A stretch of 25,888 nucleotides of DNA from a virus. The notes beneath the pieces are model-generated. The model did no database searches. It worked only from the letters and a program-made list of their open reading frames with translations, and was not told the DNA's origin. The position numbers and the translations under genes are program-made. Positions 10,401 to 25,864 of this stretch are shown piece after piece. The DNA lies in IMG/VR virus record IMGVR_UViG_3300025286_000123, positions 1 to 25,888 of that record; one strand, written 5' to 3'. Each line of letters begins with the position of its first letter. Position 1 is the stretch's first letter.

Positions 10401-13400
10401 GTTGAACAAGAGAACATTTAGTGCTTTGGACAGCCTGAATGTTCTTGATGATAAGGTTCGTGTTTCGGGTCACAGGAATCCGCTAGGCCCGGAAGGTTTA
10501 CGCTATGGTTTAGATGAACTTTGGGAAGGTGAGAAGATTCCTTATGGTGAATCTGCCTTTGGCCAAAAATCGGCTGTGGATGCCTTGACCCAGAAAGCTG
10601 AAGAGGTGCTTGGCATCAAGGGATTGAAGCCGATTTTGGAGCGCGTGATTGATCTTCCGGTTTTGCCCAAGACTGATACGCAAATTAATTCTTCAGAAGC
10701 TATCCGGACAATGACCAAGATAAGTGGTGAGTCTACGGTAATGATGGTTAATGATGACACACCCATCCCGCATGACGCGACTCCTAGAGGGATGCAGCAG
10801 TCGATTACAGATCGAACGCACAAGATCAAGTACGGGACACTCAAGGATTTCAAGATCACGGAACCCCTGACTTGGAAACCGTTCCAGCGCCTCACACGAA
10901 GTTTCCGTCCTGTTATAGACAGGATAAAGGAGATTGGCCTGACACCGGAAGCCAAGGAACTTGCCATAGAAGTGTCTAAACAAGCGAGAGCCACGCTTGG
11001 TGAACACAGCAAATTGATGGGTCGATTCTTAGAAAGTCTGATGCTCGCCTTGAGCGAGGTCAAGATGAGTCCCGCTGAGTTTAATTTGCTTGGCGACTAT
11101 CAACATGCGCGTTGGCGTAAGCACTTGGGTTTGGAAGATTTGGCTGATGCTGACACGATCAAGGCCAGAAACGATGCCTACAACACTAACGCAAGGATTC
11201 GGTATTTTGATCGGATGATGGAGAACATCTATCGGGACACTCGACAGTATCAGAATGATATTGGGATGAAGGTGGAAGTGTTCAGGGGCAATGAATCATT
11301 CCTGACTCCCGGCAAGTTCACCCGCGAGTACACACCTGAAATCATCAGTCAAGTGGTTCGTCGTGTCATGATGAAAGGCGAGACAGCCAGCCCTGAATAT
11401 CAAAAGCTGCGTAATGAGGCTATTGAGTATTGGGAAAGTCAGTCCAAGAATCTCACACCAGAAGAACTTGAGCAGTCGCTTCTGGGTTTGGAAGAAGGTA
11501 GTGATGTTCCAACTGCGGAAATTATTTCGGACATTGAAAAGCTATTCAAGGAGCGCGACAGGCTTGGGTTGTTATTTGATAAGATGGCCAGCAGCCTGAA
11601 GATGAAGGAACAGAGGATTGGTTCCCAAAGATACAAGGCTCTCCGTGTTGCCACGGGTAAGATGGGTATTCCACCGCATTGGGTTGAACAGAATGCCATT
11701 CAGCGATTGACTCGTTACGTTGTTCGCTTTTCCAAGGACGCAGCTTTCTTCAAGCACATTGAGAGTAACGACAGGATGCGCAAGATTCTTGGCATACCGG
11801 ATCAGGAAGGCAACTACCTGAGACCAGACTTACCGGGGCTTGAGAAGGGTGGCCCATTCAATCTCAAGGTAAACAATGCCGGTGACATAGTTAAACCAGA
11901 CAAGTCAATAAAGCCTTACAACAGACCAGTACAGTCCAACCATGAAGTGTTGGATACGTTAATGCAGGGTTACATTGGTTACTATGAAAGTTGGGATTTA
12001 TGGACGCGCACATTCAATCGAATGGTTACATCAAGTTGGCTGGGTGTTGGCGCGGGTCTTCGTGATCTTGCCTCATCCTATCTGTTTGATCTGCCGTACA
12101 TGCGCACACAAGACTTGCATATCTTGGTCACGCACTTGTTTAAGTTCAGAGATGCTTGGGTCAAGAGTTACCTGACAGGTGTTAATAAGACCAGCCTTGG
12201 TAACTTGGAATTTACACATCAGAGCGCCAGCGAAATCTCCGACAACATTAACAAGGTGGCCGATGTTGCCTTGGTTGTTGGTGGTCGGAGTGTCTTGGAA
12301 AAATCAACTCGCGCATTGCAATTTGCTCTTGGTCGCCAGCTTATCTCGGCAAACCTGAGAATGCGGCCATTGGACAAGATATTGCCTAAAGGGGATTGGA
12401 CAGCTAACAGACTACTCAGGAACCTGATGGAACACATGGGTGAGACAACTGTTGCTGGTCGCAAGGTTAGCCTGTTTGATTATGTCGGCAAGAAGAACTC
12501 TGATATTCCAGAAGAGTTGCTGGATAATGCGGCAGCAGCTTGGGTGGAGATGAATCAAGGTACTTATGATGTTCGTGGTTTGCCGACGTTCACGCAGCGC
12601 GGTGTCTCAAGTATGTTCACTTCACTTGCAAGATGGTCGATTGAGAAGTCGGACAGAATGCTCAAGGATGTTTGGATGCCGTTGAGAACTGAAGGTGATC
12701 CGCTGCCACTTTTCAAGGCCACGCTGGGTGCATTGCTTGGTGGTGAGGCAATCAAGTATCTCAGTGAGGAGCTTGCTAACAAGGTTCGGAGTGAACCCAA
12801 GTTGCTTGAGGCTATCCAGATGGATAATGCAGAGGAACAGGCTTATGCCGTTCTCAGTTCGTTGCAAATGGCTGGTTATTTTGGTTTCCAATCTGCCTTG
12901 TTACATGACTTGTACAGGTCATCGCGGTTTGGTGTGTCAGAGGGTATTCCCGGTGGCTTCACCTTTCCCATGGCAGATGCTGCCACCACAATCTTCAAGG
13001 ATTTTGTGCATCTTCTCAGTTCTGAGGAGGCTTTTAGTAGTGGTTGGAGTGCGGCATGGATGAAGTTTCTGCGGAATACAATCATGGGACTCAACCAGAC
13101 TTTGCGATATTCGTTTCAGCATCTCACATTGTCGGATGAGATGTCGGAGTTTAATGCTCGCACACAACTCAGGAAGTTTAGAAGGCTTGAAACAGGTTTG
13201 GACAGGCCGGGAGTACCGTCAGGAATAAGTAACGAGTATGCTTGGCCAGCGCGTCGTGCCTTCAAGGAGGCGAACAGCGTGTCTGAAGCCAGACGACTCT
13301 TGCCAGCCGCCGTTGCTGAAGCTGCCAGAAAAGCAATTCAGAAGAGACCAAACAACAAGAGAGAACAGTCAGAACAATTTGATGATAACTGGAAGGAACT

Positions 13401-13749
13401 GTACAACCTGATGTGGACGGCGACTCCAGCTTTGCCTAACAAGAAGGATGTCAGCGATCAAATTGAGCGCATGAGATATTTGGGAATCAAAGCAAGCGCG
13501 AGTGACCTGATTAATTTTCCGATGCTTGCCAAGGAAACCACCAGAAAGCCTGGTATTGCTGGACTTAAACTGGGTGTGAAGACTGTTAGTGACATACCGG
13601 GAGCGCCGGAAGAGATGTTGCCGGGAACAATCATCTCAAAGAAACAATCCAAGAGGTTGATGGAGTTGGAGAAGGAGTTTCTGAGACTGAAACAGATCAA
13701 GAAATCCATGATACTTCGCTACATGCAATCAAATGGCAAAGTGATTTAG
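7477..13749 (+). CDS. Giant ejection/polyvalent-type virion protein with HEXXH motif, 2090 aa
   Basis: The GTG start overlaps the previous stop. After a charged N-terminus, residues ~40-230 hold several Gly/Ala-rich hydrophobic stretches that could insert into membranes. Helical charged regions follow. Residues 497-501 read HEVAH, an HEXXH zinc-metallopeptidase motif, with a glutamate-rich helix (VEEIF) about 55 residues on that could give the third ligand. A helix-rich region with KFDQMRRWFSDVK follows, as in metallopeptidase domains of phage polyvalent proteins. The remaining ~1450 residues are mainly helical, with hydrophobic stretches near 1520-1560 and 1740-1830 and a basic C-terminus. 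Size and gene order fit the gp16-type ejection protein of podoviruses, which crosses the envelope ahead of DNA. No lysozyme-type transglycosylase motif was recognised. Peptidase activity is inference. Confidence 0.6.
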   Translation: MTLEEKKQKLREQLGYPDDHPIYTEEEWLALKKAERTSAGRAALEGVSIEIAPGGGALAAMAGASKALAKIPVPKGRLAIPAGIAKGVGMLGSAVLGGIATREAQAKVEEAVRGKDDFEAKELQRRMLRKAHPVAYTAGEFAGGGLGGGVRPTSTTLKGAQEFIRTAGGIRGKMNQDVAAHALTNVGIGGGLGLAFEGARQYSEGEFSPGALATAGVGGALLTEPWGHGRKLLGVPARGVTKKLGEIEEAKTKLGYVYEHATPRQLRESKMPLSTTEKLPTEVAYLHWKAKQGHDPKARQVTIEQYVKLREKELLDELVKKEKVNTDGAKVKEFDLFGDEVTTTSTKTAKKEKGLTDPKITKAVKDKFESTQRKRLEKQAKDIIKRELEGLTHRDLMGSLRRVKSVTRESEALQYIKESGKTAEEARLELAAEVEKNLLPGVFESAKNLVAKRGVTLNIALNRMTIDALRSVAGYARTKQRDIILSIDDLTADLPYHEVAHVFVRDMVESSNERDSKLMKGWLTDLYSDDPRVARLRGHPKLQDRWIESVKKEVEEIFVTESSKRLAERIRTLPKGKFDQMRRWFSDVKRGMKVRYGKPAVNDILDYLGQRMEVDVSMLLDNDLHTRQGIPLEEYLTSSKLNSETQLDFGFKPDATHKGTLTVEGVTYESSASAYAIPKEIAELFGIPDMPKGFVKQYVDNMNKMKSFTVSNKKFGSELEYLEPTHLMENSTDYPADFKKLMKIMQSRNTGAIKQVFKVLEDMEAPDIVLQTRRPEDPIASYNSKEITIGVPTIDDSFDMVLAQQLIHRRLMNEPILTDELSGVLKRMRNAEHWFNVYEPYMVESFLDFAIRRDSRVSDASKATVGNYHKGLDVENVDLRGTHGHSDLTNANFAKYKPRMQNQGNALHDVMNNLPDDVRLAFATRMVAKDNIWSSPEEFLSHYDAMLNLLGLEGSTIRNNFNGLSGSEQTILNGMLNKRTFSALDSLNVLDDKVRVSGHRNPLGPEGLRYGLDELWEGEKIPYGESAFGQKSAVDALTQKAEEVLGIKGLKPILERVIDLPVLPKTDTQINSSEAIRTMTKISGESTVMMVNDDTPIPHDATPRGMQQSITDRTHKIKYGTLKDFKITEPLTWKPFQRLTRSFRPVIDRIKEIGLTPEAKELAIEVSKQARATLGEHSKLMGRFLESLMLALSEVKMSPAEFNLLGDYQHARWRKHLGLEDLADADTIKARNDAYNTNARIRYFDRMMENIYRDTRQYQNDIGMKVEVFRGNESFLTPGKFTREYTPEIISQVVRRVMMKGETASPEYQKLRNEAIEYWESQSKNLTPEELEQSLLGLEEGSDVPTAEIISDIEKLFKERDRLGLLFDKMASSLKMKEQRIGSQRYKALRVATGKMGIPPHWVEQNAIQRLTRYVVRFSKDAAFFKHIESNDRMRKILGIPDQEGNYLRPDLPGLEKGGPFNLKVNNAGDIVKPDKSIKPYNRPVQSNHEVLDTLMQGYIGYYESWDLWTRTFNRMVTSSWLGVGAGLRDLASSYLFDLPYMRTQDLHILVTHLFKFRDAWVKSYLTGVNKTSLGNLEFTHQSASEISDNINKVADVALVVGGRSVLEKSTRALQFALGRQLISANLRMRPLDKILPKGDWTANRLLRNLMEHMGETTVAGRKVSLFDYVGKKNSDIPEELLDNAAAAWVEMNQGTYDVRGLPTFTQRGVSSMFTSLARWSIEKSDRMLKDVWMPLRTEGDPLPLFKATLGALLGGEAIKYLSEELANKVRSEPKLLEAIQMDNAEEQAYAVLSSLQMAGYFGFQSALLHDLYRSSRFGVSEGIPGGFTFPMADAATTIFKDFVHLLSSEEAFSSGWSAAWMKFLRNTIMGLNQTLRYSFQHLTLSDEMSEFNARTQLRKFRRLETGLDRPGVPSGISNEYAWPARRAFKEANSVSEARRLLPAAVAEAARKAIQKRPNNKREQSEQFDDNWKELYNLMWTATPALPNKKDVSDQIERMRYLGIKASASDLINFPMLAKETTRKPGIAGLKLGVKTVSDIPGAPEEMLPGTIISKKQSKRLMELEKEFLRLKQIKKSMILRYMQSNGKVI

Positions 13750-13856: not shown

Positions 13857-15095
13857 TTAAAATTTCATAGTGCCATAGACATCATCCACCATTGACCTGA
13901 ACCAGCCCCCATTATTCTCTACTTGCTCGGTTGTGACAAGAAATTCCAGCACTTGATCCAACTCCTGTTTCGTGATGTCAGAGACAAAATTGAGCCAAAG
14001 TTTCTTGTACCGCACACCAGATTCCGAGTCGATGATATAACGAAGGATATGTTTTGTAATCTCACCGATTGGATTTCGTCCGATGGTGTTGAACGCCTCG
14101 TGCATCTTGTGTTCCGTGATTGTCAACAGCTTCTTCGCCCTCTTCATGTCCTCCAACGACACTTCCATGTTCATGTTGTCAGCGAAGTGTACAAGCATAG
14201 CCGTCTTCAACAGGTGAACATTCTTGCGACCATAGTAATTGTCCAGCCGTGGGTCTCTGTTCACTCGTTTATTTATAAGGTTGCCTGACTCATACAGTTC
14301 CTTGTGCCATTCTTGTGCCTCCTTACTTAACCTGACTTCACCAGCGATCTTGTGAATCCTGTACAGGAATTCAACTAGGTCTTCCCGACATTTCTGTTGC
14401 TTGTCGGTCAGGCCGGGAAACTGCCGGTAAAATCGTGGTTCATGTCCATAGACAACAATGACACGGGAAGTGAATCCTTGTGAGATTATCTTGTCGCTAA
14501 ACGCCTCCCGTATGAACATCGGCGTTGTGCCGCCAATCAGGGTCACGCAGATGTTTGAAATCCTGTCCTCACCCTGATGCTTACTCTTGTAGTGGTAGCT
14601 GCGAGCATCATAAAACTGGTTCAACATGTTCACCATATCCTCAGAGTTTTTGCGGAAGAGAACACCAAGTTCCTCAATCATAAAACAGATTGAGAAGTGT
14701 GAACGATTCTTCTTTGCGTCACCACCAAGTCTTTCATCTGGAACCTTGAATGTACGCAGACATTCCTTCGACATCATTCGCAGAAGAGACTCTTGCGTGG
14801 TTGTGTCTGCACCGTAGGGATACATGGGAACCATTGTGTTCTTCTCTTTGTTAGGTTCCATCAGTCGCTCACACTTGATTATGTCAGCGATCTGCGAGAT
14901 TACCCGCGACTTGCCAGAAGCCGGTGGCCCTACCAACAACACAAAGATGTTGGGAAAGATTGCCATTGCATCCGGGTAAAGCCAGACGCGCCTCTGCAAC
15001 GCGGTGCTTATCAGGTTATAGAAACCCCAATCTATGAAGAGGTCAGGTGATTCTATGTCCTTGAGATAATGCCGCCACTTCTCAAGATTCGTCAT
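13857..15095 (-). CDS. DUF3987-like P-loop ATPase, putative replicative helicase/primase-helicase, 412 aa
   Basis: Walker A GPPASGKS is at residues 56-63. A hydrophobic strand ending in acidic residues (ICFMIEE, 136-142) serves as Walker B, and a polar strand (ICVTLIGGTTP, ~182-192) could be a sensor. Before Walker A comes a short helical region with PDAMAIFPNIFVLLVG. This layout matches the DUF3987 family of phage and plasmid ATPases related to replicative helicases. A winged-helix-like region could occupy the last ~80 residues. It is the last gene of the - strand block, downstream of the DNA polymerase gene and overlapping the 65-aa gene by 14 bases. I see no primase zinc finger or TOPRIM domain, so priming must come from elsewhere. 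Confidence 0.65.
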   Translation of the reverse strand: MTNLEKWRHYLKDIESPDLFIDWGFYNLISTALQRRVWLYPDAMAIFPNIFVLLVGPPASGKSRVISQIADIIKCERLMEPNKEKNTMVPMYPYGADTTTQESLLRMMSKECLRTFKVPDERLGGDAKKNRSHFSICFMIEELGVLFRKNSEDMVNMLNQFYDARSYHYKSKHQGEDRISNICVTLIGGTTPMFIREAFSDKIISQGFTSRVIVVYGHEPRFYRQFPGLTDKQQKCREDLVEFLYRIHKIAGEVRLSKEAQEWHKELYESGNLINKRVNRDPRLDNYYGRKNVHLLKTAMLVHFADNMNMEVSLEDMKRAKKLLTITEHKMHEAFNTIGRNPIGEITKHILRYIIDSESGVRYKKLWLNFVSDITKQELDQVLEFLVTTEQVENNGGWFRSMVDDVYGTMKF

Positions 15096-15279
15096 CGAGT
15101 AGGTAACTAACTAGGTTTGAAACTTTTACCCACTCATCAAGAGTGACCACAGGGAAAACATTACCATTTACTGTGATAAACAACGCCGGTATATAGCTGT
15201 TTTCCTCATCTTGTGCCTTGTCAATACCTACGCTGATATTAACATCATCTTCATTATACGATACAGTTGGTCTACGCAT
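15082..15279 (-). CDS. Small acidic protein between polymerase and helicase genes, 65 aa
   Basis: The start overlaps the end of the DNA polymerase gene by 8 bases and the stop overlaps the start of the helicase-like gene by 14, so it is tied in translation to both. The product (MRRPTVSYNEDDVNISVGID and on) is acidic, with a beta-strand run around residues 28-45 (YIPALFITVNGNVFPVV) and a short helix at the end. No family is recognised. A role with the replication proteins is possible from position only. Confidence 0.6.
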   Translation of the reverse strand: MRRPTVSYNEDDVNISVGIDKAQDEENSYIPALFITVNGNVFPVVTLDEWVKVSNLVSYLLDDES

Positions 15280-17635
15280 ACATTTCTTTCCAGTTGTATC
15301 CCGTCAGGGCTTCAGAACGCATTTGGAATGGCTCGCCGCGAGGGGAGATTAGTTTACGGTTCAGGTGTTTCATTGCCTCCGTGGCAACAAACTCTTTGTG
15401 TTCTTCCGGACATTGAAGCAAGACACTATCGTGGTTATTTTGGAGGATGTCAACTTCCAAGTCCATCAGGTCTTGTCGATTTTGTAGCTCGACAAAGGCT
15501 AGATTGGTTATGCAGCCGACAGTTGACTGCGGGACAAAGGCATAAGCCTCCTTGTGCATCGACTCATCAATGAAGCCGGTGAAGGTTCGAGGATAGCCAA
15601 AGAGGTTCCTGAGCATCTTGGTATTCTTCAGCGTCATAATAGTCTCATTATGCCATTGCTTAATTTCTGGAAACAGTTTGTGGTAGGTTTTAAGGAAGCG
15701 AGACGCTTCCTTATTCTCAAGCGCGATTGCGCCCTGAGATTTCTGTAGCATGTTGACTCTGAAGGTTGGTGCTTTCATGCCGTAGTTGCTGGCGTGACAG
15801 ACCATCTTTGCCATGAAGTAGTAACGACAGTTAGCTGGCCACTCGTCACTATCCTTGATTAAAGTGTTAAGTTCATCCCAACCTTTCATCTCCTTCAGCT
15901 TGTCGATTGGTGCGTCACAGAATTCCCTGACACTTCGACCAAGTTTATCTTGCCAGACAGCCTCGAACAAACGCAAGGCAACGTAGACATGCGACTTGAT
16001 TCCCTCGCTGAACAGCATACGAAAGTTTCCACGCATACAAAGATAAGCAACGATCATCGCTTCAGCCCCAGCTTGATCCACTTGCACAAGTATCTTGCCC
16101 TTGTCGGCAATGAATAGGCGACGAAGTTTCTTTGGTATGTTCTGGATGTTGGTTCCCCACTTGCCTAACAGACGACGACTCGCAAGACGGAAGGTCGTTG
16201 TCCCGGCTAAATTATATGAGGTTGTAATTCGGTCAGCCATTGGCTTGGTGTATAAGCCTTCGTATGGCGGGAACTTCAACAAACCAGACTCCTTGGCGAC
16301 TGATCGGTAACGGATGATGAGGGAGACAGCCGGTAGATCGTGTTTCAGGCGCAGTTGTAAGAGGGTTTTCTCATTCGTAGCATCACGGTCAGGTTTTCTC
16401 AGGCTCAAGCCAGCATACAAATACTCCGAGACTTGCTTGGGACTGTTAGGATTAACATCGCGGCCAAGCAACAATGATAGCATCCGTTTAACTTGATATT
16501 GATAACGGTCATTGTGCATTCTAATCATCTGCAATTCTGGTGTGTCGATTCGTATGCCTTGAAGTATCGCAGTTAAGTAGGGTCGAACCATAGAGTTGAC
16601 CTGTTCAATGGACTCCTCGGCTCTCAAGGTCTTGGCCAGCTGATCGATGGACGGCTTGATTAGGGCCATCGTCAGCACATCCTTGATGTTGTACTCGTAA
16701 AGTTGCTGGAATTCGCTGCTGTTCTGCGGGTTAAAGATGCCCTCGTTCTTGTGATAAGGCTGGTCTGTGTACAGCGAGATACAATGGCCCAACGACTTCT
16801 CAACTTCAGGGAATAGTCGGTGATGAGATAGCATCGTGTCATAGACACGAGTGGGGGCTGGTATGCCGTAGCGATAAGCTATGACGAAAAGGTCGAACAG
16901 GGCGTTGTGTATGACTACGATGTTGTCACGGAGAGCGATGGCTAGTGCGCGAAGGATTTTGTGGGTGTTGTCATAGTGATAATGGTTTAGCTGAAGCATC
17001 GGGACACACCAACCCTTATCGGGGCCGAAGGAGAAACCGAAACAGGTCATCTCAAGCTGTGGGTTTGTTTCAATGTCGAAGAACATCTCCTTATCCTTGG
17101 TGTTTGTTAGGAGGTCAATGATCTCCTGTTCCTTGGGATAGGTGATTAGCTCGCCGCTCTCTGGTCTTGGCGGGTCTTTCAGGTATTGAGCAGCCTTGGA
17201 CACATCACGCAACATCCAGAATCGCCAGTTGCTGCGCTTGGTCTTGCCGTGCCTGACTGTCTCATACTCAAGTTCAGTCTCGTTAGCTAACGGGTTGAAG
17301 TAGGCTTTCCTGTCTATGGCATCTTGTGGGAGGAAGGTTGCCATGTAGGTTCTGCCGTGTGCCATCCAAGGACAACCACGCTGACCACCCAATGCTATGT
17401 TCTTGAATGTCCTGAGAGACTTTTCGCCAAGCAACAGAATGACTTTTGTGTCAGGCAGAAACCCCTCGCCAAGTGTATTCAGCAACCTAATGTCGCATGA
17501 TTGGCGAGGGATGTTGAGCGCACCCTGAAACAGATGACCGGCGTAGCCAGAGATAAGTTCGCAGTTGTCGAACCTACTTGGATTGTCCAGAAGTATCGTC
17601 AGACCGCTGTAGTTTATCGTTGGCTTGTGCCGCAT
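15272..17635 (-). CDS. polA: Family A DNA polymerase with 3'-5' exonuclease and degenerate UDG-like N-terminus, 787 aa
   Basis: Replicates phage DNA. The DEDDy exonuclease shows D187 and E189 (DIET), N244/D248 (HNALFD) and Y315/D319 (YNIKD). The polymerase domain has motif A D520 and E525 (VDQAGAEA), motif B K610 with YG at 618-619, and motif C H735-D736 (NNHDS). Compared with E. coli Pol I, the motif-B position equal to F762 is His614, the Arg four before the Lys is Tyr606, and the residue equal to E883 is Ser737. Residues ~60-110 (KVILLLGEKSLRTF, then RGCPWMAHGRTYMATFLP) resemble the C-terminal part of family 4/5 uracil-DNA glycosylases, but the usual HPS motif is replaced by FLPQDA, so glycosylase activity is unlikely. 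Other phage polymerases carry similar N-terminal modules, to my knowledge. There is no 5' nuclease domain. Confidence 0.9.
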   Translation of the reverse strand: MRHKPTINYSGLTILLDNPSRFDNCELISGYAGHLFQGALNIPRQSCDIRLLNTLGEGFLPDTKVILLLGEKSLRTFKNIALGGQRGCPWMAHGRTYMATFLPQDAIDRKAYFNPLANETELEYETVRHGKTKRSNWRFWMLRDVSKAAQYLKDPPRPESGELITYPKEQEIIDLLTNTKDKEMFFDIETNPQLEMTCFGFSFGPDKGWCVPMLQLNHYHYDNTHKILRALAIALRDNIVVIHNALFDLFVIAYRYGIPAPTRVYDTMLSHHRLFPEVEKSLGHCISLYTDQPYHKNEGIFNPQNSSEFQQLYEYNIKDVLTMALIKPSIDQLAKTLRAEESIEQVNSMVRPYLTAILQGIRIDTPELQMIRMHNDRYQYQVKRMLSLLLGRDVNPNSPKQVSEYLYAGLSLRKPDRDATNEKTLLQLRLKHDLPAVSLIIRYRSVAKESGLLKFPPYEGLYTKPMADRITTSYNLAGTTTFRLASRRLLGKWGTNIQNIPKKLRRLFIADKGKILVQVDQAGAEAMIVAYLCMRGNFRMLFSEGIKSHVYVALRLFEAVWQDKLGRSVREFCDAPIDKLKEMKGWDELNTLIKDSDEWPANCRYYFMAKMVCHASNYGMKAPTFRVNMLQKSQGAIALENKEASRFLKTYHKLFPEIKQWHNETIMTLKNTKMLRNLFGYPRTFTGFIDESMHKEAYAFVPQSTVGCITNLAFVELQNRQDLMDLEVDILQNNHDSVLLQCPEEHKEFVATEAMKHLNRKLISPRGEPFQMRSEALTGYNWKEMYA

Positions 17636-18490: not shown

Positions 18491-19000
18491 TTAAGGAACT
18501 ACAATATCCAACTCAGGTGCAGCGGATACTATTTCGTTTACTGAATAGCCGTTAAAGGTGACTGGCTCGCCCGTTGCGGGGTCAAGCATAGCCTCACCGT
18601 TTTCGTTCTTCCTAGGAACCGGCTCCGTTTTGATCGTGGCATAGACAGCCTTTCCCTTGTAAATGTCAGGGTCAGGTTGAACAGTCTCCCAAGGGTTGTT
18701 CTCATCAGAACACTTGATGTCGGATGACAGTTCAAGAGTGCGGTGTATCTTCTTGATACGACCCGCCATCTTTTCTATGTACGGCAAGAACTGACGGAAT
18801 TGTAACCCGGCAATCTTGACATTTCCCAAGGTATCATCTTCGATAGACTCAGGCGCAACGATCTCCCAAGACAGAACAACCATAGGGTTGCCAGCTTGAG
18901 ATGTCTTACTCTCCGCATCAGCGACACGGATCGTGTAGGTATTCGATGGCAGAAACGGCCTTGCGTTCTCTGTTACATCATTCAGGTTTATAGTAGGCAT
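18491..19000 (-). CDS. DUF669-like protein, putative single-stranded DNA-binding protein, 169 aa
   Basis: The N-terminal part (FLPSNTYTIRVADAESKTSQ, then AGNPMVVLSWEIVAPES at about 16-53) follows the pattern of DUF669-type phage proteins: a P-x-G/N-x-Y strand, then 'KTSxAGNPM' and a hydrophobic strand. These are thought to be OB-fold-like and often sit beside phage recombinases. The middle has helices and a GLQFRQFLPYIEKMAGRIKK stretch. The C-terminus is short and acidic (EIVSAAPELDIVVP), as in many SSBs. It is located after the Sak4-like ATPase and alpha-CTD-like genes. Sak4-type annealing proteins are known to work with a partner SSB, so this is its probable partner. An AGGATAA ribosome site lies about 10 bases before the ATG. 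Confidence 0.6.
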   Translation of the reverse strand: MPTINLNDVTENARPFLPSNTYTIRVADAESKTSQAGNPMVVLSWEIVAPESIEDDTLGNVKIAGLQFRQFLPYIEKMAGRIKKIHRTLELSSDIKCSDENNPWETVQPDPDIYKGKAVYATIKTEPVPRKNENGEAMLDPATGEPVTFNGYSVNEIVSAAPELDIVVP

Positions 19001-19136
19001 TGTTTTGTTTTATCCTTGCATCATGCAAGAAATTAAATTGACACACGGGCGATCAATGCAGGTCAAAGGATACGAAGATGACAGTCTCCGCGAACACAAC
19101 CCAGTTGCATCTTAATAGCACCCTTGTACCCATGTA
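19001..19136. other. 136-bp gap with a short palindrome
   Basis: The gap lies between the alpha-CTD-like gene and the DUF669-like gene, long by the standards of this block. It contains the palindrome TTGCATCATGCAA (19016-19028) close to the DUF669 start. It also has a + strand frame of 30 residues (19023-19115, beginning MQEIKLTHGRS) and a - strand frame of 26 hydrophobic residues from about 19132. Neither has convincing translation signals. A promoter for the DUF669 gene could lie here, but I cannot identify -35/-10 elements with confidence. Confidence 0.4.
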
Positions 19137-19538
19137 TCATAGAGATTTCAGTTGTAAATTGTGTTCCTTTAGTTTGTGTATTACTTCAGACAAACTCTTC
19201 TTCCAAAAAGCGCGTATCATTAACAGATCATGTTCGGTCTTGTTGAGAAGATCACCCATATATTTAATTCCGCAATTACGGAAACAGTTGGAAACACGAG
19301 GACTCCAATCAATCTCATCTATTCTTGAGTAGTAGTCTATACCCTTTATACTGTCAGTGACATTGTCATAAATAGTGTTGTCAACGAAAAGATAACGGTC
19401 GCCACCATGAAGTGACCAGACTTTTGTGCCACCTTCATCATCCTCTTTTGATACAACCACACCAGAATCTAGGTTCACCAAGACATCACCTTTGAACACT
19501 TTGTTGTTTTCAGTATTTATGTTAATCCAATTAGGCAT
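19137..19538 (-). CDS. RNA polymerase alpha-subunit C-terminal-domain-like protein, 133 aa
   Basis: Residues ~73-131 reproduce the alpha-CTD fold pattern: IDEIDWSPRVSNCFRNCGIK, then YMGDLLNKTEHDLL, then KKSLSEVIHKLKEHNLQL. Relative to E. coli alpha, the DNA-contact residues R265, N268, C269, K298, S299 and E302 correspond to R81, N84, C85, K114, S115 and E118; G296 is replaced by Trp112. The N-terminal ~70 residues are a different, beta-rich domain (WININTENNKVFKGDVLVNL onward) in place of the alpha-NTD, so it cannot assemble as a normal alpha subunit. A strong GGAGGA precedes the ATG, which overlaps the ATPase stop by 8 bases. It could bind UP-element DNA, or compete for or redirect activator contacts. 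The helix-hairpin-helix fold also occurs in other DNA-binding proteins, but this residue set points to alpha-CTD. Confidence 0.8.
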   Translation of the reverse strand: MPNWININTENNKVFKGDVLVNLDSGVVVSKEDDEGGTKVWSLHGGDRYLFVDNTIYDNVTDSIKGIDYYSRIDEIDWSPRVSNCFRNCGIKYMGDLLNKTEHDLLMIRAFWKKSLSEVIHKLKEHNLQLKSL

Positions 19539-20175
19539 AGTATTCCTCCAGACTGTTGATGACGGTGTTGAGATCGTTGGGTATGTACAGGTCGCTGAAC
19601 ATTCCCATCGGGGTCTTTGCGGAGGTTACTCCGTCAGAGTTTGTTTGAAAACAATACTCGATGGAATCTTTCTCGCGCCTGACTTCGGTGAACAAGACCA
19701 ACAAAAACTCCTTCTCAATGCAGCCTTCGTGGACTTTACCCTGCACCTTGATGCGTCGGGTGTTGTACTCGCCGCCAGTTGGTTGCATGATCTTGACGAT
19801 CTCGTCAATGGCCGTGACAACGACTATTGCTTTCTCGTTCTTGAGGCTTTCAAGTGTCTTGCGGATTGACTTGTTGTAGTGTGACCAGACATCGTAGCCC
19901 TTGTACATTTTCTGGGCCGTGTCTATGAGGATTTCACAATATTTTGTGAACGACTCAATGACAACGATGTCGGCGTTCTTCGTGGCCGTTTCAATTGCCT
20001 TCTCTATCTCAGGCAGCATTGTTGCGGTGATGGTCTGGAAGTTTTTGGCTTCCTTGAATGGGAAACCTTTGCGCTCAAGATCAACGATAATTGTATCTTT
20101 GAGTGGTAGATTTCTCAGCGATGTCGATTTGCCGGTTCCGCTGGAACCAACTATTCCAATCAGGGGTTTATTCAT
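19531..20175 (-). CDS. Sak4/RecA-like P-loop ATPase, putative annealing recombinase, 214 aa
   Basis: Walker A GSSGTGKS is at residues 10-17, immediately after a short strand (LIGIVG). A strand ending in acid (DIVVIES, 69-75) is Walker B, and a later strand (EKAIVVVTAID) could carry the sensor. The size and lack of the RecA N- and C-terminal parts fit the phage Sak4-type, RecA-core single-strand annealing proteins. Typical neighbours of Sak4 are found here: a Cas4/RecB-like nuclease upstream and a DUF669/SSB-like protein downstream. The stop overlaps the alpha-CTD-like start. A general phage AAA ATPase of other function remains possible, since annealing cannot be read from motifs. Confidence 0.7.
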   Translation of the reverse strand: MNKPLIGIVGSSGTGKSTSLRNLPLKDTIIVDLERKGFPFKEAKNFQTITATMLPEIEKAIETATKNADIVVIESFTKYCEILIDTAQKMYKGYDVWSHYNKSIRKTLESLKNEKAIVVVTAIDEIVKIMQPTGGEYNTRRIKVQGKVHEGCIEKEFLLVLFTEVRREKDSIEYCFQTNSDGVTSAKTPMGMFSDLYIPNDLNTVINSLEEYYA

Positions 20176-20381
20176 TTTTTCAGTTTTTGTTTCAGTACAA
20201 CGAGGTAGTGAAATTGGTCGATGTTCTCTTCAATGGCAGAGTCCACAAGTTGTTCGAGCGACATTTTCCACATGCCTTTGTCGCCGGTTGGGTTGTGTTC
20301 AAGCATGCCTCTCTCAAATTTCTTGGGTGCTTCGCGTACAAAATGTGCAAGTGCCAGTCGTTTTATCTCAGGATCGGTCAT
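20172..20381 (-). CDS. Small MazG-like helical protein, 69 aa
   Basis: The ATG overlaps the nuclease stop as ATGA, and the end overlaps the ATPase start by four bases. The sequence has KFERGMLEHN followed by a helix (MSLEQLVDSAIEENIDQFHY) with the E-E-x-x-D spacing seen in the metal-binding helices of MazG-like and dUTPase-like all-alpha NTP pyrophosphohydrolases. The 'xFxxGxxEH' opening also occurs in a common small phage family of that type. At 69 residues it would contain only the core helices and would need to act as a multimer. Likely nucleotide-pool function, at low certainty. Confidence 0.45.
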   Translation of the reverse strand: MTDPEIKRLALAHFVREAPKKFERGMLEHNPTGDKGMWKMSLEQLVDSAIEENIDQFHYLVVLKQKLKK

Positions 20382-21283
20382 GTCTGGAACTTTAACGGAT
20401 CGTAGAGTTTTGTATAGTAATCATTGTCGATCACATTCTCAGCAAATTCACCGGCATTGCAGATTGAAGCGAATCTGCACATGCCAAACTTTGTCTCGCA
20501 ACAGTTGAAGTTGGGGAGAAACTTTGGCTCTCCATCCAGACTTTCGGTTAGGACATCAACAAACTTTACGACGGTCTCAGTCAAGTGCAGCTCAAACTTT
20601 TTCATCCTGTCCTCCGTGAAATCCAAGATGGCACTACGCTGGAACTTGTTCTTGCCAGAGCGAGAGAGGAAGATGCCGTTGATAACTGCCTGATAGTTTT
20701 TGTCGGGAAAGAGTTTGCGAAGGATCATTGTGTAGACCATGAGTTGCGTGGACATTCGGAAGGCATCCAAGAACCTGTCAACGGCTGTGACAGCTGTTGA
20801 TTTGTGGTCACAAAGAATTGGTTGTCCGAAGTAGGTTCCAATGAAGTCTATTGTGCCACATAGAAGAACATCGATTGTGCCGTTGGTGTAGAACGGGAAA
20901 GCAAACTTCATCTCAAGCAGAGGTTTGCCCTCGTGTTTCTCGACTACAAGACCATCCACATCTGCGTAGTTATCGAAGTATTGAGTGAGGCAGTTGGCCA
21001 AGTGACCGGCAGTTCGCCAATCAGTTTCAGGCACAATGATTTCAGGCTTTGTGTAATGAGCAATGGCAGCTGACATTGCCTCGGTCTTGTCGCCCGTGGC
21101 GTAAAATGATTCAAGTGCCTTGTGATAGGCTGTGCCGTACTCCATCTTGTGATTGAAGTCGTTGTTTCTCAGACCACGAACGATTGTGTAGTACATCTTC
21201 AGGTCACAGGTTGCCTCTCTGTATGCCGAGGCATCTATTCTCAGGATGTACCTGTCTTCACTTTTTTCTAATAAGGTTTTCAA
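20378..21283 (-). CDS. Cas4/RecB-like PD-(D/E)XK nuclease with Fe-S cysteines, 301 aa
   Basis: The RecB-type nuclease motifs are in order: GTAYHKALE with H54, GTIDFIG with D146, DHK at 159-161 (the D/E-x-K part), and a QLMVYTMIL helix with Q180. Cys26, and Cys261/262, Cys269 and Cys275 near the C-terminus, reproduce the one-plus-three cysteine layout that binds a 4Fe-4S cluster in Cas4 and AddB. The protein would trim DNA ends for recombination with the Sak4-like ATPase. No CRISPR array or cas1/cas2 is present, so this is a phage recombination nuclease rather than part of a CRISPR system. It overlaps both neighbours. Confidence 0.8.
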   Translation of the reverse strand: MKTLLEKSEDRYILRIDASAYREATCDLKMYYTIVRGLRNNDFNHKMEYGTAYHKALESFYATGDKTEAMSAAIAHYTKPEIIVPETDWRTAGHLANCLTQYFDNYADVDGLVVEKHEGKPLLEMKFAFPFYTNGTIDVLLCGTIDFIGTYFGQPILCDHKSTAVTAVDRFLDAFRMSTQLMVYTMILRKLFPDKNYQAVINGIFLSRSGKNKFQRSAILDFTEDRMKKFELHLTETVVKFVDVLTESLDGEPKFLPNFNCCETKFGMCRFASICNAGEFAENVIDNDYYTKLYDPLKFQT

Positions 21284-21440
21284 GGTTTATTCTTCCGCGA
21301 GTTTTCTTTGTTAGTTGCAGTTCTTCAGCTTCCGGTGGACGAGCGATCTTCAGGTATGGTTCCATGTGGGCTAGAAGTTCTGAGTCTGTCATCTTCTCCA
21401 GCCGATCAACTGATATGTCCAGTAGTTGCTCCAATGTCAT
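21258..21440 (-). CDS. Small charged protein, 60 aa, unknown
   Basis: The ATG overlaps the stop of the micro-peptide gene upstream as ATGA (21440-21437). The 3' end overlaps the nuclease gene by 26 bases. The product (MTLEQLLDISVDRLEKMTDS and on) has two short amphipathic helices with repeated Leu and ends in a K/R-rich segment (KKTRGRINLENLIRKK). It could bind nucleic acid or a partner protein. No family recognised; support comes from tight coupling. Confidence 0.55.
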   Translation of the reverse strand: MTLEQLLDISVDRLEKMTDSELLAHMEPYLKIARPPEAEELQLTKKTRGRINLENLIRKK

Positions 21441-21523
21441 GTCTTGATGTCAAAGGCTGCCAAGATTAGACAGCCAAAGAAGATGATGAGATAGATTAAT
21501 CCGATAAGGTCTAGTAGTGTCAT
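21437..21523 (-). CDS. 28-aa single-span membrane peptide
   Basis: This gene reads MTLLDLIGLIYLIIFFGCLI and then LAAFDIKT. Nearly the whole peptide is one transmembrane helix with Asp at each end. Both ends are joined to neighbours by ATGA overlaps (21523-21520 and 21440-21437), the same device used through this operon, so it is very likely translated. Tiny membrane proteins among phage early genes can modify host membrane proteins, but nothing here identifies a target. Confidence 0.6.
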   Translation of the reverse strand: MTLLDLIGLIYLIIFFGCLILAAFDIKT

Positions 21524-22047
21524 TTCATTACTCGTACGCTTGTTTCAGTTATGTCCACTTCGGACTCCGGGCCAATCAGATTGTGTACCCACTCCTTGTC
21601 GTCAGGACTGACGGCAACTTTACGCTCAAACAGTTCCTCTTCTGGGGCTGTCTTGTACCAAGTTTCGAGGTCGTTCTTCCACTTGAGACTGTCGTTGTAT
21701 TCGTACTCGATCTCACGGCTTGCCAGACGGTTCTTTGATGTGTCCTTGAAGTAGACAAGGATTCCACCGTCGAGTTTGCGTACGGAGACACGAGAGCGTA
21801 GGAGTGTGTACTTGTTCTCGTCAAAGTTATCGACGATGAACTTGAATCCATCGTTGAACTTGACATAGAGAGTGTTGGGCGAGTAGCCGGTGGACTCTGT
21901 GGTCATGTAGACATCCTTGCCTGTCTCCAATAGACGGTCGAGAATTGGCTGGATTTGCTTTGCCGCCGATGGCGAGTAGCTCGACCGCTTTAGCTTCATC
22001 GATTCCTTGTGAGGAATGGATGCTATGAAAGTGTCTTTGCTTTGCAT
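21520..22047 (-). CDS. Hypothetical protein, 175 aa
   Basis: The N-terminal ~70 residues contain two helices (SPSAAKQIQPILDRLLETGK and a segment NTLYVKFNDGFKFIVDN) that could form a helix-turn-helix-like unit. A strand (LLRSRVSVRKLDGGILVYF) and a charged, helical C-terminus follow. The start overlaps the upstream gene by 25 bases and the stop forms ATGA with the micro-peptide gene. An in-frame ATG at residue 17 (MKLKRSS) is an alternative start. It is the second gene after the sigma-54-type promoter. No family recognised; a DNA-binding role is only suggested by the N-terminus. Confidence 0.6.
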   Translation of the reverse strand: MQSKDTFIASIPHKESMKLKRSSYSPSAAKQIQPILDRLLETGKDVYMTTESTGYSPNTLYVKFNDGFKFIVDNFDENKYTLLRSRVSVRKLDGGILVYFKDTSKNRLASREIEYEYNDSLKWKNDLETWYKTAPEEELFERKVAVSPDDKEWVHNLIGPESEVDITETSVRVMK

Positions 22048-22424
22048 TGTTCCATTAATTCTCTGGCCTTATCATGTTCACCAGCAGCGACAGCCGCTTC
22101 GGACAGGAGGAATAGTTTGCGAGCCGACAGTTCCTTGACAGTTGGATGCCACTCTTTAGCTTGGTCTTGTGACAAGACACAGCCGTCAGGGTATTTTTGG
22201 AATATATCTTCCTTGAATCTTTCCAACTGGGAGGATGGTAGATTCTTGGGTAGATTGTTCTTTGTCTTGGTTCTCAGCCGGGACTGTATCTGTTGATTGA
22301 GAAGGGCAAGACAGGTCGGTTCTGTGTATGCTGAGACTACCTCTTCGATAGTTTCAAAGACAGGAACATAGAACTTTAGTCCCTTGAAGTCTCCTTCGAT
22401 GAATTTCTCTTGTTTATATTTCAT
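22023..22424 (-). CDS. First gene after the sigma-54-type promoter, hypothetical, 133 aa
   Basis: The ATG at 22424 lies about 22 bases downstream of the expected start point of the -24/-12 promoter at 22457-22472. The product (MKYKQEKFIEGDFKGLKFYV and on) is helical and basic in the middle (QIQSRLRTKTKNNLPKNLP), with a C-terminal helix pair (ARKLFLLSEAAVAAGEHDKA) that looks like a TPR-type hairpin. No ribosome site is obvious upstream (the leader ends TTGCCCATTT before ATG). No family is recognised. As the leading gene of the operon it would be a direct target of the phage activator. Confidence 0.6.
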   Translation of the reverse strand: MKYKQEKFIEGDFKGLKFYVPVFETIEEVVSAYTEPTCLALLNQQIQSRLRTKTKNNLPKNLPSSQLERFKEDIFQKYPDGCVLSQDQAKEWHPTVKELSARKLFLLSEAAVAAGEHDKARELMEQCKAKTLS

Positions 22425-22456
22425 AAATGGGCAATTGTTAAACCCGATGACATGTT

Positions 22457-22472
22457 AGCAGGAAGTGTGCCA
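22457..22472 (-). promoter_or_regulatory. Candidate sigma-54 (-24/-12) promoter
   Basis: The - strand reads TGGCACACTTCCTGCT. Against the sigma-54 consensus TGGCAC-N5-TTGC, the -24 element matches in all six positions and the -12 element in three of four (CTGC), with the essential GG and GC dinucleotides exactly 10 bases apart. It sits in a 66-bp intergenic gap, one of few in this block, directly after the gene for a sigma-54 activator AAA+ domain, and about 33 bases upstream of the next ATG. Transcription would start near 22446. A match of this quality is expected once or twice by chance in a window this size, but the location makes it stand out. Confidence 0.65.
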
Positions 22473-22490
22473 ACTTTTTGGGGGTTGGTA

Positions 22491-23219
22491 TTACTGATAG
22501 ATGACTAATTCGCCTAACACTTTGTATCGTGCGATAATGCTTTGTAATTCTCTATAGTTTCCAGATAGTTCTGTTAAATTTGTTATTTTGTTGGTGAGGT
22601 CTTTAGCTTCTTTCTTGTCAAAGCCTGTTTCTGTCAGGTAGAGCGTGATGTCGTCGGGTCTTTCTCTCAATGGGGTTGTCTGGATTATGAAGATCGATAT
22701 GCGATGGAACAGGTCTAGTCTGAATCGTTTCTCTCTCACTTCAATGCGGAGGTCTTTGTTAGTTGAGAAGACTAGCCGACAGTTGGCTGCTGTTAGCTTG
22801 GCATTTCCTACTTTGCGAAAGTTCTTGTGCTGAATGAATCGCAAGAGTTTGGGTTGGATCAATAGGGGAAGCTCGCCTATCTCGTCAAGGAAGAGTGTGC
22901 CGCCGTTAGCTTGCTGGACTAGGCCGGTTGTGTCACGGGTTGCACCCGTGAAAGCGCCTTGCGCGTGGCCAAACATTTGTGACTCAAAGAGTTCTGGTTG
23001 AAGAGTTGTGACATTGACAGGGACGAAGTTGTCACCGTGGCGATGTCTGCTGGTTGCGGTTTGGCCTTGCCTTCGGTTGCCATGTAGGATGTTGGCCATC
23101 TCCTCTTTACCCGTGCCGGACTCCCCCGTCACTAGGACGGGGTCGTCTCGGCTGGTCAATACTTGAGCAAACCGAATTTGGTCAAGCATGTGTGGGTCTT
23201 GAGTTATCAGATCAGGCAT
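22491..23219 (-). CDS. Minimal sigma-54 activator AAA+ domain (bEBP-like), 242 aa
   Basis: Bacterial enhancer-binding proteins use ATP to open sigma-54 RNA polymerase promoters. All landmarks of their AAA+ domain are present: Walker A GESGTGKE (32-39), the sigma-54-contact loop GAFTGA (88-93), Walker B GGTLFLDEIG (106-115, with D112 and E113), sensor I FSTN (to N154), the arginine-finger region FRLDLFHR (166-173), PLRERPDDI (183-191), and sensor II GNYREL (220-225). There is no N-terminal regulatory domain and no C-terminal Fis-type DNA-binding domain. It would thus be an always-on motor, able to act from solution or with a separate DNA-binding partner. A ~14-residue insert (QGQTATSRHRHGDN) lies before FVPVNV. 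It overlaps its upstream neighbour by 8 bases. Confidence 0.9.
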   Translation of the reverse strand: MPDLITQDPHMLDQIRFAQVLTSRDDPVLVTGESGTGKEEMANILHGNRRQGQTATSRHRHGDNFVPVNVTTLQPELFESQMFGHAQGAFTGATRDTTGLVQQANGGTLFLDEIGELPLLIQPKLLRFIQHKNFRKVGNAKLTAANCRLVFSTNKDLRIEVREKRFRLDLFHRISIFIIQTTPLRERPDDITLYLTETGFDKKEAKDLTNKITNLTELSGNYRELQSIIARYKVLGELVIYQ

Positions 23220-23403
23220 TGACTTCTTCTACATCAACCCAATCTACTTTCAATATCTTTTTCCAATCCCACTCACTTGGATGCCCGTCGAAAGACGAGT
23301 GTTCAAAGGTGAGCTTGATTGTTATTTCCTTTATCTCCTCCTTTTCAATGGGGGGAGTTTCGTTCTCACGCTGGCCCCAAGCGTCTAGTGAAGTCCAACT
23401 CAT
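23212..23403 (-). CDS. Small acidic Trp-rich protein, 63 aa
   Basis: The ATG overlaps the DUF932 gene's stop as ATGA (23403-23400), and the end overlaps the activator gene by 8 bases. The product (MSWTSLDAWGQRENETPPIE and on) is acidic with five tryptophans. It has a strand-like IKEITIKLTFEH followed by DWKKILKVDWVDVEEVNA. No family recognised. Since it is co-translated with the activator, it could regulate it, as the usual N-terminal regulatory domain is absent; this is speculation from position. Confidence 0.6.
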   Translation of the reverse strand: MSWTSLDAWGQRENETPPIEKEEIKEITIKLTFEHSSFDGHPSEWDWKKILKVDWVDVEEVNA

Positions 23404-24164
23404 TGCTTTGCTAGGAAGTTGAGTACACGGTGAGAAGTGCGCTGGGCTAACTCAAAACTCTTCTCTGAAAGAGGGGTGAGTTCTTGAGTGACAGCGTTGT
23501 ACAGGTTGTAGATGTTGCGGCGATGGTCTAATTCATAGGTTGGATTAGTCCATGTTTCCTCGATTCTCTTTGCTCGACGGTCGCCAAGCTCCATCTTCTT
23601 GATGAGAACGGAACCTTCATCCTGTGTTATCTGTCGGTTAGACATTGCCTTATAGAAATCAACGGCGGCAAGCCATTGAAATCGTGACTCCTTGATTGTG
23701 TCCCGCAAGAATTTTAGGTCGATGCGGTTGTTGTGTACCTTGGTCACTTGACTTTCCTTGGCCATTGAAACCATGCCATTTGAGCAGATGTAACGCAGTA
23801 GACCGGCAGCTAGGGTGACTCCAGTTGAGCCATCATAGGAGTTCTTGGCAAGGAGACGGAATCCAAGGTTGTCTCCCGGCACTATCTCACGCTGCTCACT
23901 ATCAAAGTCGTAAACAGCGTACATCCGACGACCACCAGCTACCGAGTAGGTTTGTCTGGTGAAACCACCGTAGTCTAGGCAGGATTCGATTGTCTCCAGA
24001 ACATCTTTGTTCTGAACGATCTTGTATTTCTTGCTTGTTACGGCCAAGCACTCGCCTGTGTCCTCGCGGAAGTTGCCGACAAAGCCGTCAACTCTCACGC
24101 CTTTTGAGTATATGGATTGCCTGACGACATTGAAGTCGTAGGCATCTGTTTGTTTAGTTTTCAT
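23400..24164 (-). CDS. DUF932 family protein, 254 aa
   Basis: I use the ATG at 24164 (MKTKQTDAYDFNVVRQSIYS), which overlaps the upstream gene by only 11 bases; a GTG at 24221 is in frame but lies deep in that gene. The run from LAVTSKKYKIVQNKDVLETI through GGRRMYAVYDF, GDNLGFRLLAKNSYDGSTGV and LRYICSNGMV is the conserved core of DUF932 (phage/plasmid-like protein family, TIGR03299-type). These proteins are widespread on phages and plasmids and their molecular function is not known to me. Helices fill the C-terminal half. Confidence 0.75.
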   Translation of the reverse strand: MKTKQTDAYDFNVVRQSIYSKGVRVDGFVGNFREDTGECLAVTSKKYKIVQNKDVLETIESCLDYGGFTRQTYSVAGGRRMYAVYDFDSEQREIVPGDNLGFRLLAKNSYDGSTGVTLAAGLLRYICSNGMVSMAKESQVTKVHNNRIDLKFLRDTIKESRFQWLAAVDFYKAMSNRQITQDEGSVLIKKMELGDRRAKRIEETWTNPTYELDHRRNIYNLYNAVTQELTPLSEKSFELAQRTSHRVLNFLAKQ

Positions 24165-24387
24165 TTTGTTTGTTGTGGAGCTTTTCCACAAGATTGTATA
24201 TTTGCTGTTCTCCTTTTTCACTTATTGGTTTTTCGAGTACGAAGTACAAGACTTTCCTGCCACTTTGTAGATTCTCACAAACACCCGTGTTCACGCATCG
24301 TATATTCTCACGAATTAAAATACCACCAATAATTGCAGTCAACATTTCCCGATAAAATTCGCTAATTTCCCAAATGTAGTGGTGCAT
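24154..24387 (-). CDS. Small protein, 77 aa, unknown
   Basis: The start codon and first codons (MHHY) lie within the first copy of the 41-44 bp tandem repeats; a second copy carries a similar ATG-CAC-CAT that leads to a stop after 13 codons. The product has a helix (ISEFYREMLTAIIGGILI), two Cys (CVNTGVC) and a C-terminal helix (KGEQQIYNLVEKLHNKQ). No Shine-Dalgarno is visible. It overlaps the DUF932 start by 11 bases. No family recognised. Confidence 0.5.
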   Translation of the reverse strand: MHHYIWEISEFYREMLTAIIGGILIRENIRCVNTGVCENLQSGRKVLYFVLEKPISEKGEQQIYNLVEKLHNKQNEN

Positions 24388-24506
24388 TACTACTGGTACA
24401 TATAATGTTGCTATTGGTTAAAGTGCTGGTTTACAACCGGCGCACATAATGTAGCGATTGGTAATGGTGCATTACTACTGGTAATCATAATGCAGCAGTT
24501 GGTTTT
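24381..24506. repeat. Three imperfect 41-44 bp tandem repeats
   Basis: Copies begin at about 24381, 24425 and 24466. All contain the core ATAATGnnGCnnTTGGT (24402-24418, 24446-24462, 24487-24503). Copies one and three also share GGTGCATTACTACTGGTA. The region is the longest gap without a gene in the - strand block and lies directly upstream of the 77-aa gene. It could be a protein-binding array (operator or activator site), a replication iteron set, or the scar of a duplicated gene start. The spacing and number are unlike a CRISPR. Confidence 0.75.
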
Positions 24507-25261: not shown

Positions 25262-25508
25262 ATTCTTGGATAGAATTATCTTTTGGAAACAGGATTGTTA
25301 ATGGTGGAATCCAACAATGCATTTTGTATTCTTCAAAGTATTTAGCGTATTGAGGGTTGTTCTTTAAGTAGTTGTGGTTGTATCGGAGGGTGTGTATCTC
25401 TTCGAGTGTTAGTTTGTTGCGTGATTTCCAGTTAGTGTATTTGCCTTCCTTTCTACTGCTCCAACCGTATGGCAAGTCTGCAAAATCTTTTTTCCAAGGG
25501 TGTATCAT
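25248..25508 (-). CDS. Small protein, 86 aa, unknown
   Basis: The product begins MIHPWKKDFADLPYGWSSRK. It is rich in Tyr, Asn, Lys and Trp, with a helix LTLEEIHTLRYNHNYLK and a hydrophobic HCWIPPLTILF stretch near the end. It overlaps its neighbours by 4 and 14 bases, which supports a true coupled gene. No family recognised. Confidence 0.55.
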   Translation of the reverse strand: MIHPWKKDFADLPYGWSSRKEGKYTNWKSRNKLTLEEIHTLRYNHNYLKNNPQYAKYFEEYKMHCWIPPLTILFPKDNSIQEYGRF

Positions 25509-25864
25509 AACTCGGATAGTCCCGTGTCCTCTAGCAAGTACCAGCTTCGGGCATTTATGGGCTTGGACGGACTGTCAGCACCGATGCACCACACATATTG
25601 TTCGTGCTTGTGCTGGTGGAATCGTAGTTTGCTGTTCATCTCATTGAGTAGGGTGTTGAGGCGTTCGCGGGTTGTTGGTGTACCCCAACCGGCAAGTGTT
25701 AGGTGGATTTTATCGCCTCGTTTTCGGGCGATTATGTTGCCGTGCAAGTAAAGTTCGGTCATATTGCCGCCAATTGTGGGGAATGATCGGACTGTTGTGT
25801 TGTCTCTGCTGAATTTGCGCTCGTTGATAAAGGCGCGAGCCGCTAGTTTACTGATTTTTCTCAT
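25505..25864 (-). CDS. Conserved phage hypothetical with TTRERLN motif, 119 aa
   Basis: Near the centre the protein has LYLHGNIIARKRGDKIHLTL, then AGWGTPTTRERLNTLL. This combination of a beta-strand pair with 'LHGN-IA' and a 'W.TxTTRERLN' helix start is a recurring phage protein that I know only as a hypothetical. The N-terminus is basic (MRKISKLAARAF). It is the first complete gene of the - strand block in this window; the 24 bases up to the right edge show no further start. Confidence 0.65.
   Translation of the reverse strand: MRKISKLAARAFINERKFSRDNTTVRSFPTIGGNMTELYLHGNIIARKRGDKIHLTLAGWGTPTTRERLNTLLNEMNSKLRFHQHKHEQYVWCIGADSPSKPINARSWYLLEDTGLSEL

Follow-up and report, generated by a model that had tools for sequence, protein, structure and literature searches.

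A predicted AAA+-only sigma-54 activator and its candidate promoters in a group of uncultivated tailed phages

The IMG/VR virus record IMGVR_UViG_3300025286_000123 was analysed over its full 25,888 bp, a stretch referred to here as the window. Its minus strand encodes a predicted activator of sigma-54 RNA polymerase, that is, a bacterial enhancer-binding protein (bEBP), followed directly by a -24/-12 promoter-like site (P1) and a long block of co-directional genes. An earlier note on this DNA had placed the activator, the promoter and a protein resembling the C-terminal domain of the RNA polymerase alpha subunit (alpha-CTD) within 4 kb on one strand, and all three proved to be real. The central features are as follows.

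22491-23219, minus strand: predicted sigma-54 activator (bEBP) of 242 amino acids (aa), AAA+ domain only; PF00158 at 1.8e-53, AAA+ domains of NtrC/FleQ/PspF in the PDB, alignment of 13 phage homologues
22473-22457, minus strand: predicted -24/-12 sigma-54 promoter P1, TTGGCACACTTCCTGCT; 17.4 bits; ~20 nt past the activator stop, 32 nt before the next open reading frame (ORF)
23212-23403, minus strand: 63-aa protein; overlaps the start of the activator gene by 8 nt, in the same place across the window's clade
19137-19538, minus strand: alpha-CTD-like protein, a beta-rich N-terminal part followed by an RNA polymerase alpha C-terminal domain; PF03118 at 3.2e-15, above the cut-off

The activator is recognized by its domain, its contact loop and its catalytic motifs, from which it is predicted to be a sigma-54 activator. 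Residues 4-179 match the Pfam family Sigma54_activat with 181 bits (cut-off 20.2), and the nearest solved chains are the AAA+ domains of NtrC, FleQ, NtrC1 and PspF. Walker A (GESGTGKE), the GAFTGA loop, Walker B (LFLDEIGE), an arginine-finger region (FRLDLFHR) and sensor II (GNYREL) are all present. In the alignment of 13 phage homologues, the invariant columns include G35, T36, G37 and K38, D112 and E113, R167, R173, and G220, N221 and R223; the sigma-54 contact loop reads GAFTGA in the window and GAFTGA, GSFTGA, GAYTGA, GSYTGA or GSYSGA among relatives. A profile of the 13 activators retrieved 233 relatives in viral contigs, and the relatives considered reach down to ~40% identity. A C-terminal helix-turn-helix (HTH) DNA-binding domain is typical of bEBPs, though not universal. 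The phage protein begins ~3 residues ahead of the AAA+ domain and ends ~22 aa past sensor II, and therefore lacks a DNA-binding domain, as the earlier note had proposed; neither a regulatory (receiver or sensor) domain nor any HTH family was found with Pfam and the homologue alignment. The 63-aa protein encoded just ahead of it is a possible regulator or partner.

P1 matches the sigma-54 promoter pattern, its -24 GG and -12 GC lying in a TGGCAC-N5-TTGC context. Sites were scored with a matrix of 29 intergenic Salmonella sites printed in PMC3844500. On this matrix, P1 falls within the range of the training sites themselves (16.0-23.2 bits), and the next-best site in the window lies 7 bits lower, at 10.4. 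A hand-made consensus also ranked P1 best in the window, yet it was equalled in 4 of 60 shuffled windows; this was too weak to serve as sole evidence in a single window, and the published-site matrix was used instead. Six relatives with activators 56-91% identical to that of the window keep the -24 GG and -12 GC invariant while neighbouring bases drift, and they also conserve the placement and orientation of the site ahead of a transcription unit. P1 is thus a strongly predicted sigma-54 promoter, one that would drive the whole replication and recombination block. A scan of the window for sigma-70-type early promoters returned nothing above chance.

Sites of the same kind recur in related viruses. 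The records are not independent, and the counts given here overstate independence, though the activators diverge to ~40% identity and the promoter sequences differ. Three positions are involved: P1 follows the activator, P2 stands ahead of the capsid gene, and P3 stands ahead of a ~1100-aa gene that precedes terminase and portal. G001 (42,759 bp) has three -24/-12 sites, with P1 and P2 ranking top two and P3 fourth on the published-site matrix. The whole-record top three on that matrix are exactly P1, P2 and P3 in G012, G013 (a record of 45,479 bp whose ends overlap), G016, G017, G018 and G024, and the two best sites are P1 and P3 in G020, G022 and G028. Across eight records, 14 sites stood upstream of same-strand ORFs, against a mean of 0.12 for 300 column-permuted motifs. 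Among the best 80 of the 233 activator relatives, a strong site lies at most 150-200 nt past the activator stop in 70-72 contigs, where ~0.1 would be expected. A capsid-protein search with the G001 query returned 29 loci, and a P2-type site occurs 103-120 nt before the capsid start in all 18 loci with at least 70% capsid identity, which form the window's clade. These 18 sites comprise several clearly different core sequences, and their flanks have shifted or diverged. G014, whose neighbouring structural protein is 89% identical to the window's, reaches the capsid gene and has P2.

The leader between P2 and the capsid start is of interest in its own right. It holds two tandem stem-loops whose loop sequence, AAGGGCAT, is invariant (L041:4896-4950, and at the corresponding position in L029-L055). 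The stems covary, with 98% of cells paired and 3 pairs showing double changes, and slid controls score far lower. The structure is found in both capsid clades, is specific to the capsid leader, and gave nothing above threshold in Rfam; it is possibly an RNA element controlling capsid translation or stability.

The genes that surround the activator, P1 and the alpha-CTD-like gene are listed below.

23400-24221, minus strand: DUF932 protein, upstream, presumed early; PF06067 at 4.3e-20
22023-22424, minus strand: first gene after P1, 133 aa, no assigned function; same place in relatives, conserved to ~35-40% identity
21520-22047, minus strand: 175-aa protein, no assigned function; gene order in relatives
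21437-21523, minus strand: 28-aa hydrophobic, membrane-like micropeptide, missing from the ORF list; found by reading the sequence
21258-21440, minus strand: 60-aa protein, no assigned function; gene order in relatives
20378-21283, minus strand: PD-(D/E)XK nuclease, Cas4/exonuclease-like; PF12705 at 6.3e-14, phrog_1218 exonuclease at 2.5e-14
20172-20381, minus strand: 69-aa protein; no family match
19531-20175, minus strand: Sak4-like recombination ATPase; phrog_2872 at 1.6e-31
18491-19000, minus strand: SSB-like protein, weakly supported; phrog_378 at 8e-5
15272-17635, minus strand: family A DNA polymerase (PolA), same co-directional block; PF00476 at 6.8e-31
13857-15095, minus strand: DUF3987 protein (helicase-like), last gene of the block before convergent structural genes; PF13148 at 4.5e-18

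Beyond SSB, the block extends on the same strand as far as 13857, taking in GIY-YIG-like, PolA and DUF3987 genes. The order of activator, P1, 133-aa gene, 175-aa gene, micropeptide (with 28-31 aa counterparts in six relatives: L004, L016, L017, G012, G013 and G018), 60-aa gene, PD-(D/E)XK nuclease, 69-aa gene, Sak4, a variable slot, SSB and, further on, PolA and DUF3987 holds from the window to relatives at ~40-60% identity, the exceptions being small or unmatched genes in distant records. P1 therefore faces replication as well as recombination genes. The chain of genes described in the earlier note is borne out for the nuclease, Sak4, the micropeptide and, weakly, SSB; a MazG identity for the 69-aa protein was dropped, as neither Pfam nor PHROG gave a family match, and the block runs on past the SSB gene at which the chain had ended. 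The same note had envisaged sigma-54 control of a recombination operon. P1 supports this, but the scope was too narrow: such an operon is ruled out as the sole sigma-54 target, since the block reaches PolA and DUF3987 and the capsid and terminase-portal modules of relatives are preceded by sites of their own.

Elsewhere in the window, a 2090-aa structural-region protein (7477-13749, plus strand) has no Pfam or PHROG match and is conserved in final position, just ahead of the convergent replication block. A protein of the Kyanoviridae Gp96 family (25505-25864, minus strand; PF23790, 2.9e-15) occurs here in a podovirus-like genome. The early intergenic region at 24376-24504 contains three 44-bp direct repeats, iteron-like, with the core ATAATGYNGCNNNTGG; single copies of this core occur in several relatives, and it is a candidate origin or regulatory site.

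We propose that the phage very probably runs its middle and late programme on host sigma-54 RNA polymerase by means of its own AAA+-only activator. Transcription would begin with the upstream genes and the activator, presumably through the housekeeping holoenzyme of the host. The activator would then assemble into an ATPase ring, whose GAFTGA loops would let it engage sigma-54 closed complexes from solution and open them. In this way it would fire P1 for replication and recombination, P3 for the ~1100-aa gene, terminase and portal, and P2 for capsid and tail. This order of events, the action from solution and the need for host rpoN are what we infer. The central suggestion of the earlier note, that a phage activator works through host sigma-54 on the downstream operon, is supported by the matrix scores, the conservation, the permutation tests and the counts of sites after the activator. 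Its remark that no phage sigma factor is present also holds: neither a sigma-54 DNA-binding domain nor sigma-70 region 4 turned up in searches of 12 records, whose controls worked. The AAA+-only architecture is sufficient in principle, since DctD250, an engineered 250-aa AAA+ fragment of DctD, activates sigma-54 promoters without an enhancer (PMC3844500). More broadly, it is likely that a large uncultivated group of tailed phages expresses its replication, packaging and capsid modules from sigma-54 promoters that a phage AAA+-only activator fires, which would make the whole lytic programme dependent on host rpoN, with some lineages adding upstream elements of their own.

Several observations weigh against this proposal. 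The window stops short of its own capsid gene, such that P2 and P3 are seen in relatives only, and the relatedness of the records means that counts taken over them are not independent. The distant relative G030 has an activator and a best site of just 13.2 bits. No strong site follows the activator in 7 of the 80 contigs, and a sister clade at ~60% capsid identity mostly lacks a site before the capsid gene. A search for a T7-type RNA polymerase found none, but was run without a positive control.

For host assignment, the capsid and polymerase were aligned against 84,980 genomes, which yielded no useful match and no host-linked relative. Matches in host-named phage records were mostly apparent bacterial contaminant sequences, plus the gut phage MT121960 (L006), whose record is almost unannotated. 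A 304-aa ORF in this phage matches the activator at 35%, and its one strong -24/-12 site (3777, minus strand) lies apart from that bEBP-like ORF.

The alternative that survives best concerns how the activator finds its promoters. Rather than acting from solution, it could be tethered at upstream elements by a separate DNA-binding protein of phage or host, which we regard as possible though less probable. The G024 lineage (L093/L094) gives this idea its main footing. TAGAAGAT occurs 13 times in 36 kb there, and 7 of the 13 copies lie within 160 bp ahead of P1, P2 and P3 (p = 1e-10, not corrected for the 427 words). These repeats, upstream of 31383 (plus strand), 23914 (minus strand) and 15303 (minus strand), form a candidate enhancer, and with copies ahead of all three promoters this lineage may use a DNA-bound partner. 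AACTGTT copies likewise cluster at P1 and P3 in G020, G022 and G028 (L085, L088 and L099), where they partly form inverted pairs 14 bp apart. In the window's clade, the 63-aa gene always lies directly ahead of the activator. Against tethering, the members of that clade (G001, G013, G017, G018 and G012) share no word upstream of their promoters beyond chance, which fits activation from solution.

It is also conceivable that the promoters respond to the host, being driven by its own enhancer-binding proteins (e.g. under nitrogen limitation), while the phage protein has another task, for instance titrating sigma-54. The sigma-54 holoenzyme needs some activator, and host ones exist wherever rpoN does. 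However, in 70 of 80 contigs P1 stays tied to the 3′ end of the gene for the phage activator, and divergent activator homologues preserve the GAFTGA-type loop and the nucleotide motifs, leaving this explanation very unlikely.

The alpha-CTD-like protein had been given a larger part in the earlier note, either as a coupled next step that changes host promoter choice or as the DNA-binding partner of the activator. Its alpha-CTD sequence and fold are real. A profile built on the five phage versions matches alpha chains of RNA polymerase at 2e-11, and the modelled CTD part (pLDDT ~72-77, within a model of modest overall quality, mean 62) superposes on solved alpha-CTDs at ~1-3 A root-mean-square deviation. 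The DNA-contact set we take to be R265, N268, C269, G296, K298, S299 and E302, with a further role for an acidic residue at 261. The R265 equivalent is present in all five versions, and the window's protein keeps N, C, K, S and E at the contact positions with W in place of G296. The gene also shares an operon with P1. Distribution and divergence point the other way. PF03118 scores above the cut-off in the window lineage, L004, L014 and L017, and in none of a further 20 related records, of which 13 have the activator, and the co-occurrence in relatives that had been set beforehand as a check is therefore not seen. In 12 of the 20 distinct contigs with Sak4 and SSB both sequenced (G001, L015, L020, G012, G013, G016, G017, G018, G022, G023, G024 and G028), the alpha-CTD gene is missing while activator and promoter remain, and it is therefore not a required DNA-binding partner. 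The versions in L004, L014 and L017 have lost K298 and S299, the acidic 261 position varies among phage versions as well, and identity is 49-57% against 87-90% for the adjacent Sak4. The slot between Sak4 and SSB (19000-19537 in the window) may hold the alpha-CTD gene, be empty, or encode a staphylococcal-nuclease-like protein (G022) or other ORFs. By gene content, then, the alpha-CTD gene is accessory cargo of a variable slot and dispensable for the predicted sigma-54 switch. Joint action with the activator, in either form, is very unlikely; a separate accessory effect on host promoters is possible.

Finally, it is scarcely credible that the sites match by chance or as by-products of coding and that the activator is a recent host capture with no role in phage transcription: the shuffles that equalled the hand-made consensus speak for this reading, and the published-site matrix, the permutation tests and the conservation in many genomes refute the chance reading statistically.

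The usual view of sigma-54 is that it regulates optional host functions and depends on an activator under signal control. If activation by the phage protein is correct, an unregulated, phage-supplied activator would turn sigma-54 into a developmental switch. Mutants in rpoN of the right host would then be resistant for transcriptional reasons and not through receptor loss, and infection would also induce the host sigma-54 regulon, as an AAA+-only fragment does in Salmonella (PMC3844500). These very small natural activators would further provide a set for studying bEBPs that lack DNA-binding domains, and an activator gene directly followed by a -24/-12 site could become a cheap genomic marker linking viral contigs to rpoN-bearing hosts.

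No phage that encodes a sigma-54 activator and carries promoters for it was found in the open-access literature, which covers part of published work, in agreement with the earlier note, which knew of no described phage with the combination it proposed; the nearest mention concerns a Pectobacterium phage, for which HHpred gave a weak similarity to sigma-54 itself (PMC7693777). The phage activator shares with NtrC, FleQ and PspF the AAA+ sigma-54 interaction domain, Walker A and B, GAFTGA, arginine fingers and sensor II. FleT of Rhodobacter (Cereibacter) sphaeroides, which serves flagellar genes of a bacterium, unlike the phage activator, resembles it in the absence of both regulatory and DNA-binding domains, a likeness of architecture. 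bEBPs often have these two domains, and in 2020 FleT was described as the sole one known without either (PMC7175178); the phage activator has neither and is phage-encoded. The group 5 bEBPs FlgR and CtcC also have no DNA-binding domain (PMC7175178, PMC7482065), but they carry a receiver domain, which the phage protein does not. FlgR is termed an enhancer-independent activator in a title cited by PMC3844500. DctD250 has the same AAA+-only architecture, but is a laboratory truncation, whereas the phage protein is natural.

The alpha-CTD-like protein, for its part, has the PF03118 match and the fold in common with RNA polymerase alpha-CTD; it differs in being detached from the alpha N-terminal domain and fused to a ~65-aa beta-rich, phage-specific part, and in keeping the DNA-contact set only partly. 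Early phage proteins that redirect host polymerase to middle or late phage promoters are familiar from T4 MotA/AsiA, lambda CII and Mu Mor/C. These work by recruiting or appropriating the sigma-70 holoenzyme, whereas the mechanism proposed here is that sigma-54 closed complexes are opened at the expense of ATP. Phage appropriation of host RNA polymerase and the AAA+-only bEBP are thus each already known; undescribed in the literature searched is a phage predicted to combine both through sigma-54, a strategy that appears to be used by the window phage and by dozens of related viruses.

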